A DNA stretch of 64,000 bases from Ensifer sp. LC163 (lineage in GTDB: Bacteria > Pseudomonadota > Alphaproteobacteria > Rhizobiales > Rhizobiaceae), in the NCBI RefSeq assembly GCF_001695855.1, contig NZ_MBSS01000045.1, positions 1 through 64,000 of the forward strand, given 5' to 3'. The notes under the pieces were generated by a model. That model ran no database searches and was not told the origin of the DNA. It worked only from the letters and a program-made list of their open reading frames with translations. The number at the start of each line of letters is the position of its first letter. Position 1 is the stretch's first letter. Positions 4,624-9,241 of this stretch are shown here, in pieces. The position numbers and the translations under genes are program-made.

Positions 4624-4929
4624 ATGTTGCGCCGGCTTGGACATCAATTTGAAATGGCATCGGCCCGCTATGCAGAAGACAATGGCATCGAGCGGGATGC
4701 GGACTGGTTCATACTCAAGATGCAGGAGGAAATCGGCGAACTGACCCAAGCCTGGAACGAGCGCACCGGCCGCGGCAGGCGGCATGGAAAATCAGAAGGC
4801 GAATTGCAGATCGATATGGCGGACGAAGCTGCGGACCTGCTGGGTCACGTGCTGCTTTTCGCCCACCATCACGATCTGGATCTCGTCGCGGCAATCAAGC
4901 GCAAATGGAAGTTTCAGGTCGAGCTATAG
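4624..4929 (+). CDS. MazG-like nucleotide pyrophosphohydrolase
   Basis: A 101-residue all-alpha NTP pyrophosphohydrolase of the MazG superfamily. The metal-binding pattern is clear: KMQEEIGELTQAW near residues 33-45 supplies the ExxE helix and MADEAADLLGHVL near 66-78 the second acidic helix. Such proteins hydrolyse non-canonical NTPs or have related house-cleaning roles; the substrate here is unknown. A ribosome-binding site (AAGGAACC) precedes the ATG. It is divergent from metG and its last six bases overlap the end of convergent holB. Confidence 0.85.
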   Translation: MLRRLGHQFEMASARYAEDNGIERDADWFILKMQEEIGELTQAWNERTGRGRRHGKSEGELQIDMADEAADLLGHVLLFAHHHDLDLVAAIKRKWKFQVEL

Positions 4930-5955
4930 CGCTGCCTTGACGTCGTCCAGCAGCGAAAGAATGGTTTGCTTGCGATCGAGATTATAGGCGTCGCTGACCG
5001 TGAGGCGTTCCCCAGTCGTGGCCGAAAGCCGGGCGAAACGCTCGGCGCGCATGATATCTCCGGCAACGGCCGCATCGCGGGCTTCCCGCATGAGCCGACC
5101 TGTCAGCAGCGACGTGAAGAAATCGAAGATCGTTTCGCTGTCCTTTGCCGAAAGAACGTCCGCAAGCTTATGGATGTCCTTGCGGATCGCCGGCCCCTGC
5201 CCTGCAAGGATCGCCTCGAACGTCGCGGCGATCTCCAGGCCGCCGTAATTGATGAGCTTCAGCGCCTCCGCGACGCTGCCATTGGCAGCGGCCAGAACGC
5301 GGTCGGCATTTTCGCTCTCAGGATCGAAGCCGAGATGATCGAGCGCCTGGCGCAATGCCGGCGGCTCCAACGGCTTCAGCCGCAGCGGCAGGCAGCGCGA
5401 ACGGATCGTCGGCAGCAGCTTACCAGGCGCATGGGTCAGCACCAGGAACAGCGACCGGCGCGGCGGTTCCTCGAGAATTTTCAGGATGGCGTTGGCCGCG
5501 TTCCGGTTGAGATCGTCGGCCGGATCGATGATGACGATGCGCCAGTTGCCGGTACCGGATGTCTGCGAGAAAAACTTGCCGGCCCGTCGGACCTCGTCGA
5601 CAGTGATCGCCCCCTTGACCCTGCCCGTCTTCTCGTCGACCGGCCGTGTCAGGTGCAGAAGATTGTGCGATGCGCCGGAGGCCAGTTGCCGCCCGACGAT
5701 CGATGCGGGGTCGGGATCCTGCAGGCTTTCGGGCGCGCTCGCCGGATCCGGGTGATTGAGGATGTGGCTGGCGAAGCGAAACGCAAGTGTAGCCTTACCG
5801 ATACCCTCCGGCCCTTCGATGAGAATGGCGTGGTGTCCCTTGCCCGATCGGTAGCTCTGCGCCAGAAACGCTTCAGCCTGCTCGTGGCCAAACAACCGGC
5901 TGTTCTTCACCGGCGCGATTGCCCCCTCAAGCACCCCTGGCGCTTCCGTCGTCAT
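4924..5955 (-). CDS. holB: DNA polymerase III subunit delta prime
   Basis: Clamp-loader subunit, 343 residues. An AAA+ P-loop is visible (GPEGIGKAT, about 48-56), followed by the DEVR region and the LKILEEPP and TIRSRC motifs (sensor-1 and SRC arginine finger) typical of delta prime. The ATG at 5955 overlaps the tmk stop in an ATGA, so the two are translationally coupled, as in many alphaproteobacteria. The open frame continues 40 codons upstream inside tmk, but those residues are not homologous-looking. Confidence 0.94.
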
Positions 5956-6632
5956 GGTGTGGATCCCGCGTTCGAAGGCGCGGGCACGTCGGCGTTGGCA
6001 AGCAAGCTCTCGACGAGCCCGAGCACCTCCGCAGCTATCGCCTCGGCAGACTGCGTCGCGTCGATGACACGGCACCTGTCCGGATTCGTGTTTGCGATAT
6101 CGAGGAAAGCCTCGCGCCGCTTTTCATGCGTCTCCAACTCCTCCTTCTCGAAACGATCCGGGCTTTCGTCTCCGGCGCGGCGTTGGGCGCGCTCCAGACC
6201 GATAGTCGCCGGCAGATCGAAAATCACCGTCCGGTCCGGAACGACGCCGTTGACGGCAACCCGCTCCAGCGTCTCGACGAAGGCCGGCTCCAGATTGCCG
6301 GTGATACCCTGGTATACGCGCGACGAATCCATGAATCGGTCGCAGAGCACGATGGTTCCCTTGGCCAGCGCCGGCCGAATGACCTCTTCGACATGGTCGC
6401 TGCGCGCCGCAGCAAACAGGATCGCCTCCATTCGTACACCGAACGCTTCGGCCGCTCCCGAAAGTAGCACATGGCGCACCGCTTCGGCCCCGACCGATCC
6501 ACCCGGCTCACGTGTCGTCAGCACCTCATGGCCGAGCGCCCGCAGAGAATCGGCGAGCAGGCGCAACTGGGTCGATTTGCCGGCCCCTTCCCCGCCCTCG
6601 AATGTTACAAACAGACCTTTTGCCAGCGGCAC
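5952..6632 (-). CDS. tmk: Thymidylate kinase
   Basis: Phosphorylates dTMP to dTDP. The P-loop is at residues 12-21 ([10 protein letters not shown]), the TREPGG motif follows near 40-45, and the substrate-binding [12 protein letters not shown] segment is present near 97-108. Length (226 residues) is slightly above the bacterial norm because of a short C-terminal tail. It lies upstream of holB in an ATGA overlap and downstream of the DacF-like gene on the same strand, so dac-like/tmk/holB probably form one operon. Confidence 0.95.
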
Positions 6633-6712: not shown

Positions 6713-7873
6713 TTACAGCCAGAAGAAGAGCAGTTCCTGCAGGGCGTCGAGCGCTCGGCTCGCCAGAGTGCCTTGGCCCACCGCCCCGGCCGTCTTGACC
6801 GGAACCTCGCGCAGCAACCGCTCGCCGTTCCAAAGCCGCACCAAGCCGACCACGGCTCCAGCCTCTACCGGTGCGCGCAGCGGCCATTTGTAGACGACAC
6901 GGGCCGTCAGGCGCTCCGGGTTGTTGACCGGCAACAGCACATCGACCGGGCCGCCGGCCACGAGCGCCACATGGGAGGTTGCCCCGCCATAAACGCTGGC
7001 CTCGCCGATCACTTCGCCGTCGGCAAAGATCCGTCGCTTTTCGAATGCCGTCATCGCCCAGTCGAGCACCTTGCGGCTCTCCTCGATGCGCTCCTTATCC
7101 GTCTCCAGCCCGCCCATCGCGAGATAGACGCGGCGATCGCCACGCTGCATCGATGCCGCCAGCGAAAAGCCGTAGCCCTCCGCAAACCCCGTGGCGAGGC
7201 CGTCAACGCCGACATTGGCCGCGATCAACGGGTTCTTGTTGCGTTGAAGGATCTTGTTCCACTCGAATTCAGGCTGAGAGTAGAGCCGATAGAGATCAGC
7301 GTGCGCCTCGTGCAAATGACGGGTCAACGTCACCAGTTCACTCATGGTGATCCGGTTTTGCGGATCAGGCAGCCCAGTGGCATTGCGGAACGTGGCGATC
7401 GGCATGCCGAGCTCGCGGGCCCGCGCGGTCATCTTGTCGGCAAAGGCAGCTTCGCTGCCAGCCATACCCTCGCCGAGGATGATGCAGGCATCGTTGGCAA
7501 GCTGAACCGCCACCCCCTGCAGCAAATCGGCCACGCGGATGCGTGACTTCAGCGCCGCAAACATCGTCGAGGTGCCGGACGGCGCACCGCCGGTGCGCCA
7601 TGCGTGTTCGGAAACGTCGAAGACCGTCTCGGCCGAAAGCTCGCCCTTGGCGATCGCCTCGGCGACCACCTCCATCGTCATCAATTTGGCAAGCGAGGCG
7701 GGCGGAACCGGCTCGTTCTCGGCGCGGGAAAACAGGACGGTGCCGGTTTCGGCATCCACCAGCAGGATCTGCTTCGCCTTGGTGTCGAACGCCACCGGCT
7801 GTGTCTGGGCCGCCGCAGCACCCGCGAGCAACGCCGCACAGCAGAACGCGACCGAAAGCATCTTCAAGCGCAT
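6713..7873 (-). CDS. D-alanyl-D-alanine carboxypeptidase-like protein with altered SxN and KTG motifs
   Basis: Exported peptidase S11 (low-molecular-mass PBP) homologue of 386 residues, with a signal peptide over residues 1-22 (AGAAAA cleavage region). The nucleophile motif SxxK is intact (SLAK, 60-63). The other two active-site motifs are changed: where PBP5-type enzymes have SGN or SAN, this reads LAN (125-127), and where they have KTG, it reads ATG (227-229). I checked both codons in the DNA (7499-7501 and 7193-7195). A C-terminal PBP5-type domain and a final hydrophobic stretch (ALQELLFFWL) follow. By family knowledge, loss of these residues should abolish or strongly alter carboxypeptidase activity. 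The start at 7873 gives a clean signal peptide. It lies upstream of tmk. Confidence 0.88.
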   Translation of the reverse strand: MRLKMLSVAFCCAALLAGAAAAQTQPVAFDTKAKQILLVDAETGTVLFSRAENEPVPPASLAKLMTMEVVAEAIAKGELSAETVFDVSEHAWRTGGAPSGTSTMFAALKSRIRVADLLQGVAVQLANDACIILGEGMAGSEAAFADKMTARARELGMPIATFRNATGLPDPQNRITMSELVTLTRHLHEAHADLYRLYSQPEFEWNKILQRNKNPLIAANVGVDGLATGFAEGYGFSLAASMQRGDRRVYLAMGGLETDKERIEESRKVLDWAMTAFEKRRIFADGEVIGEASVYGGATSHVALVAGGPVDVLLPVNNPERLTARVVYKWPLRAPVEAGAVVGLVRLWNGERLLREVPVKTAGAVGQGTLASRALDALQELLFFWL

Positions 7874-7933: not shown

Positions 7934-8965
7934 TTACCGGATCGACCCGGATCTGCCTTGGCGCTTGGCATGGGCAACGATGGATTCGGGTGTAAGCGGA
8001 TTGGTCTCGACCATGATCGCTTCAAACGGCGATTCCGCATCGCTTACCCGCACTTCCACGTAGGCGGCCGCATAGGCCATGTTGCCGTCTGGCACCGGAA
8101 TGTATTCCGGCCGCTCGCGCGGTATCGGCCCGATGTCCGGCAGCATGACGAACTCGTTCAGCGACTGCGGCGCAGCAAACTGCGGGACAGGCGCAGCAAG
8201 GGCCGTCACCGGGCCACCGGTATCAAGCGATGACTTTGATGGAATGGTCAGCGTTCCCAACTGGTTGCGCATCGGCTCATTCGAGGCAACCATCACGCCG
8301 GTCGCGATCTGGCCTTCCGGCATGACGCCGGGGCTGCGATCGCCCTTGGTGACATAGGATGCCATCAGATATGGCATATCGTTGCCTTCGAGCGGTGCGC
8401 GGCCGACATATTGCACACGAACTTTGGCGCTGCCCTTCTGCTTGATATCGAGCAGATCTGCTGTTTTCGACGACACGTCGATGATACGGCCGTACTCATA
8501 AGGACCGCGATCGTTCACGCGAACGATGACCGATGTGCCGTTTTCCGTATTGGTAACGCGCGCATAGCTCGGCAACGGGAATGTCGGATGGGCCGCCGAA
8601 AGATGGAGCTTGTCATAGACTTCGCCATTGGCGGTTAAGCGACCGTGGAAAGCCGAGCCGTACCAGGACGCGACACCTGTTTTGTTGTAGCCGAAATCTT
8701 CCTTCGGCTGATACCACTTGCCCTTGACCTGATAGGCCTTGCCGACTTGGAATCGGCCGCCGCCCTTCGGGATATTCTTGCCGGTGGCGACACGGGGGCT
8801 TGCCTTCACGCCGTAAACCGACTCGGCGAAGTATTCCTTGCTTCTCGGCTTGCTCTTCTTGATACTGGACGTGGATCCGCAAGCCGCAAGCGTTGCGCAA
8901 AGCACGGGAACCGCCGCAAGGTGCAGTCCCTTGATCAAATATGCCGCATTTTTACTGGATGTCAT
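7934..8965 (-). CDS. rlpA: RlpA-type septal-ring lytic transglycosylase, lipoprotein
   Basis: A 343-residue lipoprotein with lipobox LAAC at 26-29. The double-psi beta-barrel lies roughly at residues 100-190: GVASWYG, TANGE, SAAHPTFPLP and RVNDRGPY are present, so the Glu, His and Asp positions described for Pseudomonas RlpA are all kept. No C-terminal SPOR domain is visible; instead there is a Pro-rich tail. Members cleave denuded peptidoglycan during separation. The ATG at 8965 is preferred to a GTG three codons upstream. It precedes the dac-like gene by 60 bases on the same strand. Confidence 0.88.
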   Translation of the reverse strand: MTSSKNAAYLIKGLHLAAVPVLCATLAACGSTSSIKKSKPRSKEYFAESVYGVKASPRVATGKNIPKGGGRFQVGKAYQVKGKWYQPKEDFGYNKTGVASWYGSAFHGRLTANGEVYDKLHLSAAHPTFPLPSYARVTNTENGTSVIVRVNDRGPYEYGRIIDVSSKTADLLDIKQKGSAKVRVQYVGRAPLEGNDMPYLMASYVTKGDRSPGVMPEGQIATGVMVASNEPMRNQLGTLTIPSKSSLDTGGPVTALAAPVPQFAAPQSLNEFVMLPDIGPIPRERPEYIPVPDGNMAYAAAYVEVRVSDAESPFEAIMVETNPLTPESIVAHAKRQGRSGSIR

Positions 8966-9241
8966 CTGTCCCACAACATCATTCGAACAAGCCGTACTCG
9001 AAACCTTCCACTCTTGCCCCCAGCGGAAATCTCGGCGTCCCGAAACGGAACAGTCGAGTAATCATGACAGCAACAAGGCAAAATTGCGAACCGGCGAATG
9101 GCCAGCCGCCCGAAATCTCCAGTTATGGTTTACGAATGGTTATGGCGACGAAGTGAGCAGCGGATCCGCTGAGAAAATCTTGCAGCCCGCGCATGTTAAA
9201 TCTTGCAAAGCGGCAAGGCTTCGCGCAATAACGCCCTGCCC

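Follow-up and report, generated by a model that had tools for sequence, protein, structure and literature searches.

Results

A PBP5-type gene in an rlpA-dacA-tmk-holB block

The window, by which we mean the whole 64,000-nucleotide stretch of DNA analysed, comes from Ensifer sp. LC163 (contig NZ_MBSS01000045.1); the host genome is 6.5 Mb in size and its nearest named relatives, as judged by the protein described here, are Ensifer adhaerens strains. On the reverse strand the window carries a gene block that is transcribed in the order rlpA, dacA-like gene, tmk, holB, with the following features.

7934 to 8974, reverse strand: rlpA (RlpA family lytic transglycosylase), 60 bases upstream of the dacA-like gene
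6713 to 7873, reverse strand: dacA/dacF-like gene, 386 aa, with Peptidase_S11 and PBP5_C domains and degenerate motifs 2 and 3 (ORF translation, Pfam)
7808 to 7873, reverse strand: probable signal peptide, a hydrophobic stretch ending AAAAQ, judged by eye
7121 to 7804, reverse strand: Peptidase_S11 domain, residues 24-251 (PF00768, 177.8 bits, cut-off 27.6)
7685 to 7696, reverse strand: motif 1, SLAK, residues 60-63, kept (codons TCG CTT GCC AAA)
7493 to 7501, reverse strand: motif 2, LAN, residues 125-127, serine lost and asparagine kept (codons CTT GCC AAC)
7187 to 7195, reverse strand: motif 3, ATG, residues 227-229, lysine lost (codons GCC ACG GGG)
6779 to 7045, reverse strand: PBP5_C domain, residues 277-365 (PF07943, 67 bits, cut-off 21.2)
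6719 to 6766, reverse strand: predicted C-terminal helix resembling the PBP5 anchor, residues 370-385 (DSSP on the AF2 model)
5952 to 6632, reverse strand: tmk (dTMP kinase), downstream of the dacA-like gene
4924 to 6075, reverse strand: holB (DNA polymerase III delta'), downstream; coordinates of the listed ORF, within which the start likely lies

The 386-residue translation of the dacA-like gene is free of internal stops, and its start codon (ATG at 7873) has GGAG directly 5' of it, in agreement with the initial annotation of an intact gene in a tmk-holB block, which we can now describe as rlpA-dacA-tmk-holB. Flanked on its own strand by rlpA (upstream) and tmk (downstream), the gene has the arrangement by which orthologues of this locus were recognized; across 260 such loci, tmk adjoins the orthologue in 256 and rlpA in 238, always on the same strand. 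The window gene is best explained as belonging to the alphaproteobacterial rlpA-dacA-tmk-holB locus, as its PBP5/DacA-type orthologue. The gene order of E. coli is rlpA-dacA as well, so that the rlpA neighbour is common to both. The best NCBIfam matches of the protein are DacD (202.6 bits, equivalog cut-off 610), PRK10001 (181.6, cut-off 765) and DacA (150.9, cut-off 694), scores that are all far below the DacA, DacC and DacD equivalog cut-offs, none of which is reached. The protein had been annotated as a DacF-like peptidoglycan enzyme. Its placement among S11, PBP5-type proteins holds; the name DacF is only a label, since neighbourhood and best NCBIfam matches (DacD/DacC/DacA) give the PBP5/DacA type.

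Two of three catalytic motifs are degenerate in a protein predicted to have the PBP5 fold

In a HMMER alignment with the solved PBP5 and PBP6 chains, L125 aligns with the serine of SGN and A227 with the lysine of KTG. Of the motifs of an active S11 DD-carboxypeptidase, the window protein therefore has SxxK (S60, K63) and lacks SxN and KTG; the losses affect the catalytic positions S125 and K227, and N127, T228 and G229 are retained. In PBP5, the lysine of KTG is K213. Together with the codons read in the DNA, the alignment confirms the motif readings first made from the translation (SLAK kept, LAN for SxN, ATG for KTG). Assembly error or chance can be dismissed because LAN and ATG recur in each of 15 further genomes from the genus.

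By comparison of its AF2 model with the PDB, the window protein has a predicted PBP5 fold. The model has a pLDDT of 86.0 overall, with values below 50 at residues 1-27 and low values at the C-terminal end (72, then 56, for the final blocks). Solved PBP5 and PBP6 structures share the fold (Z 34-38), and the C-terminal helix is predicted in the window protein; the hydrophobic moment of its last 17 residues was reached by 202 of 5000 shuffles. The best solved relative, both by sequence (E 2.6e-59) and by structure (Z 38.4, rmsd 4.1, 341 residues), is PBP5 of Pseudomonas aeruginosa (4k91), which, unlike the window protein, has the serine and lysine of motifs 2 and 3. The protein is like E. coli PBP5 (DacA), PBP6 (DacC) and PBP6b (DacD), low-molecular-mass class C PBPs of family S11, in combining S11 and PBP5_C domains, and unlike them in lacking the SxN serine and the KTG lysine and in having a host without an MreB or PBP2 match. 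Export, also part of the initial annotation, is supported at the level of a signal-peptide-like N-terminus seen by eye.

Intact S11 genes elsewhere in the genome, and second copies

Four more S11 matches in the host genome (L002-L005) all keep SxxK, SAN and KTG. None has a PBP5_C match and two of the four have SPOR, making the degenerate gene the only PBP5_C-bearing S11 protein found in this genome by these searches. These rhizobial S11 DD-carboxypeptidases share the S11 domain with the window protein and differ from it in their intact motifs and the lack of a PBP5_C match. Bradyrhizobium DD-CPase1, another rhizobial S11 DD-carboxypeptidase with the S11 domain in common, has SPOR according to the available part of PMC5567381.

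A second PBP5-type copy was found in 8 of 80 additional genomes from the window's GTDB family, a count of genomes that may not represent eight independent events (L336-L343, in G587, G574, G586, G570, G595, G567, G569 and G619). The second copy is intact and the tmk-linked copy degenerate in all eight. Neither tmk nor rlpA was found within 2.5 kb of the second copies, and they have no clear donor, their best matches being spread over several families at 44-53%.

Motif state within the order Rhizobiales

At 1e-45, a match was found in 269 of 297 genomes of the order, with no stop inside any listed match. The gene seems to have been lost altogether in families f4, f16, f29 and f42, where no listed genome has a match; 28 of the 297 genomes are matchless overall. 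Motifs were read in 136 of the 269 matching genomes, in one of them only in part, and the 135 that were fully read divide into 62 degenerate and 73 intact, proportions that are not a census given that loci were picked to spread over families and that automatic picks were the best-scoring ones. Reading was extended to 80 more genomes from the window's GTDB family, where 73 first copies were found and 62 read, of which 35 are degenerate and 27 intact; the idea that this whole family is degenerate, which the first 15 of 15 had suggested, was thus rejected. One 1.0-Mb genome of the family carries two equal-scoring, divergent protelomerase (ResT/TelK) genes about 1.5 kb apart (G712:C1:351066-353819).

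The nature of the breakage varies by lineage: K227 alone, S125 together with K227, replacement of S60 by A or N, or of K63 by L or T, the last two in some families. Across lineages, S125 is replaced by L, N, A, G, M, Q, T and others, and K227 by A, G, V, E, Q, L and others. Such variety fits the loss of one function better than the acquisition of one new chemistry. In five of the 22 loss clades described below (families f10, f12, f22 and f46, and genus g75 of f15), no member keeps both S60 and K63. A protelomerase-bearing genus, most likely Agrobacterium on account of the protelomerase, is degenerate in four of four loci, with N125 and with GLG replacing KTG; three of these loci fall in the window's clade, and the fourth has no tmk match in its stretch. 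Among other variants, family f31 (L115, L224, L231, L232) keeps KTG and the SxN serine and has K63 replaced by Thr, with N127 replaced by Gly in three, and L345, L347 and L349 have ETG for KTG, a charge reversal, with S60, K63, S125 and N127 kept.

Motif state outside the order

Beyond the order, motifs were read in 136 orthologues, and every one has both S125 and K227. The first 67, drawn from the better-scoring part of a search with a profile built mostly from intact rows, are fully intact, as is that of a Hyphomonadaceae MAG (L084). The lower-scoring second set comprised 80 genomes, of which 69 orthologue-like matches were read and 11 with short, weak best matches left out; 64 of the 69 are fully intact, two are cut by the contig or the match, two have N127G and one has KSG. 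These three substitutions led us to drop the statement that all outside-order orthologues are fully intact. The N127G cases, L432 and L433 (genomes G368 and G467, 0.9 Mb), have SGG for SGN with the remaining catalytic set kept, and neither tmk nor rlpA was found beside them. One match of the second set contains a TGA (G516).

Catalytic residues were lost at least 17 times

A tree of tmk and holB for 254 loci contains 22 maximal degenerate clades, or 17 after collapsing branches with SH-aLRT below 80, and unrestricted Fitch parsimony on the same tree gives 20 changes; the tree is that of two linked genes from a quick search, and the number of losses is accordingly approximate. An earlier tmk and holB tree with fewer loci gave 12 loss clades. 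A tree of the dacA-like protein itself, with 8 loss clades, was set aside, because degenerate copies evolve fast and might be drawn together artificially. The catalytic set was thus lost independently at least 17 times within the order.

The window's clade comprises 35 rows and the loss is common to all of them. That it recurs elsewhere and that dN/dS is low (see below) led us to reject decay of a single strain or genus. Conservation of LAN and ATG in tmk-adjacent rhizobial homologues, raised in the initial annotation, therefore has a divided answer: the loss runs throughout the window's clade, but many rows in the order are intact. Homologues with S and K, which had been proposed to indicate mere lineage decay, do exist, both in the order (100 of 224 thinned rows fully intact) and outside it (136 of 136), and mark the ancestral state; selection on the degenerate copy, however, excludes mere decay.

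The degenerate gene is under strong purifying selection

Among 16 Ensifer/Sinorhizobium loci (120 pairs, NG86, dS 0.05-2), the median dN/dS of the gene is 0.085, compared with 0.092 in tmk, 0.106 in rlpA and 0.163 in an intact S11 paralogue; the S11 domain alone gives 0.072 and PBP5_C 0.077. The degenerate gene is under strong purifying selection and stays in place and in frame, in line with its earlier description as a kept gene.

Within the window's clade, parsimony assigns 11 changes to site 125, 7 to site 227 and 8 to site 228, against 5 for the median site. S60, K63, A126, N127, D128, N212, N214, G229 and G235 have zero changes, as do 19% of all sites. These counts indicate that the protein is constrained and that two of its catalytic positions are not. 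Ranking sites 125, 227 and 228 by entropy is circular, given that "degenerate" was defined on them; the within-clade counts and the neighbouring sites 102, 213 and 234 are less so. The C-terminal tail is more conserved in degenerate rows (1.85 vs 2.17 bits), a difference that is confounded by relatedness and carries no weight.

Degenerate copies occur in genomes without MreB

MreB was found in 33 of 297 genomes of the order (32 over cut-off) and PBP2 in 24 of 297, compared with MreB in 64 of the 67 genomes of the first outside-order set (63 over cut-off); the host genome has neither an MreB nor a PBP2 match. The available text of PMC8546619 describes Rhizobiales as lacking PBP2, RodA and MreBCD, and our PBP2 and MreB counts bear this out for the majority of genomes in the order as delimited here, with exceptions. 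MreB is absent from all 62 degenerate genomes tested, and none of the order genomes read that have MreB (14) or PBP2 (11) is degenerate. A Fisher test of MreB against motif state gives 1e-4, a value that ignores relatedness. When the test is restricted to tested tips and weighs branches by length, MreB-lacking branches carry 13 losses and the others 0 (P = 4.9e-4); this supersedes a first version (22 vs 0, P 2.9e-5) in which 87 untested tips were taken as MreB-lacking and L084 as MreB-bearing.

One MreB-lacking clade holds 120 of the 122 degenerate tips, and 59 of the 121 MreB-lacking genomes read retain the motifs, so that a missing Rod complex can do no more than permit the loss. It looks as though absence of the MreB/PBP2 elongation machinery is such a permissive condition. 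An alternative that concerns the cause only, and is compatible with a pseudoenzyme, is that the MreB link reflects shared ancestry and that another trait of the order's main clade drives the loss, such as the possession of many LD-transpeptidases or of backup S11 genes. The concentration of degenerate tips in one clade favours this alternative; against it stands a further MreB-lacking clade, separate from the first, in which 2 of 4 tips are degenerate, although two cases are few. We give shared ancestry a little under an even chance.

Discussion

In this study, we describe a recurrent pseudoenzyme form of PBP5 that is found here almost wholly in one order. We consider it probable that the window protein is a pseudo-carboxypeptidase with the PBP5 fold that has been kept for a binding or scaffolding role, its inactivity being deduced from the residues at the catalytic positions. 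The protein would be exported, as its N-terminus suggests by eye, and would retain the PBP5 fold and C-terminal domain according to the structural model and the HMM matches. With S125 and K227 gone, it would have no DD-carboxypeptidase activity and would not remove the terminal D-Ala, a task that would presumably fall to other S11 enzymes with intact motifs, of which there are four in this genome. Selection on the gene and the Tn-seq data discussed below point to a protein that may act at the periplasmic face of the membrane, where it would bind or scaffold other components during peptidoglycan remodelling, RlpA perhaps among them. Members of the window's clade retain S60, K63 and N127, and these residues might still accommodate a stem peptide or a beta-lactam.

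Published functional data lend support to the idea that the gene is live. The available part of PMC9790009 presents YejABEF as a peptidoglycan-recycling transporter and reports two genes of A. tumefaciens, Atu1499 (DD-carboxypeptidase) and Atu1500 (RlpA), in which transposon insertions are harmful to the delta-yejABEF mutant. These are adjacent locus tags, and Atu1499 is the probable Agrobacterium orthologue of the window gene. The hits fit a live gene, with the caveat that insertions in Atu1500 are possibly polar on Atu1499. In S. meliloti, insertions in smc01188 (pbp5C) were less competitive under NCR247, according to the available part of PMC5539429; smc01188 is probably the orthologue of the window gene, because only the tmk-linked S11 protein of the host genome has PBP5_C. 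A "dac" is mentioned in the available text of PMC11527210, where it carries no locus tag. A survey of titles and abstract openings, outside which most subscription literature falls, brought up no paper describing an S11 carboxypeptidase from this order as inactive.

The initial annotation had left the choice between a non-enzymatic and a substrate-shifted role, and of these the non-enzymatic role is the best reading. The main rival is changed Ser-Lys chemistry in the window's clade, in which S60, K63 and N127 would act without S125 and K227, either on a ligand that has no free terminal carboxylate or as a slow acyl-trap whose long-lived adduct serves as a sensor. The invariance of S60, K63 and N127 in this clade argues against a purely structural role, which does not demand it, and keeps the substrate-shifted role in contention: these residues and G229 have zero changes in 35 rows, compared with 11 and 7 at sites 125 and 227. 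In addition, a paper title states that K213R in PBP5 abolishes carboxypeptidase activity and not penicillin binding, as an acyl-trap would have it. Against this, zero-change sites are common in the clade (19%), five whole loss clades have also lost S60 or K63 with the gene kept there too, and no consistent new residue set has arisen at 125 and 227. Overall, we regard such chemistry as unlikely.

An ordinary but weaker DD-carboxypeptidase, in which other residues or water supply the lost groups, would account for the retention of the predicted fold and of most residues conserved in intact orthologues. It is quite improbable in view of the presence of S125 and K227 in every orthologue read outside the order, the loss of PBP5 activity that the K213R title reports for that single substitution, and the free variation of sites 125 and 227 after loss. 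That two catalytic residues are gone could also be the mark of a decaying pseudogene, or of a frame kept as a spacer or for coupled tmk-holB expression. This we find scarcely credible, since dN/dS is below that of the intact paralogue, constraint acts at the codon level, no listed match contains a stop and the loss is common to the whole window's clade.

The pseudo-carboxypeptidase reading can be extended into a broader proposal, which we put forward tentatively as a possibility that falls well short of an even chance. PBP5 may have a second function that needs no catalysis and that is masked in bacteria growing with MreB. After loss of the Rod complex, catalysis would have been shed at least 17 times, and the non-catalytic role, perhaps in organizing RlpA or polar wall synthesis, would have been maintained by strong selection. 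The protein of the window's clade might also act, through the invariant S60 and K63, as a covalent stem-peptide sensor of the acyl-trap kind. Inactive LytM factors, which regulate cell-wall hydrolases and on which the available part of PMC8416486 reports work in A. tumefaciens, likewise have a hydrolase fold without catalysis; theirs is a metallopeptidase fold that is not homologous, and the resemblance is one of kind only.

The name DD-carboxypeptidase for Atu1499 is probably wrong as regards activity in the window's clade, and cell-wall work on such bacteria may credit the wrong enzyme. In E. coli, the many redundant carboxypeptidases make a non-cutting role of PBP5 hard to settle. That catalysis was lost repeatedly and independently while the gene stayed in place provides natural evidence for a role of PBP5 besides cutting, and it becomes possible to test whether the mode of elongation is tied to the need for a tmk-linked carboxypeptidase.
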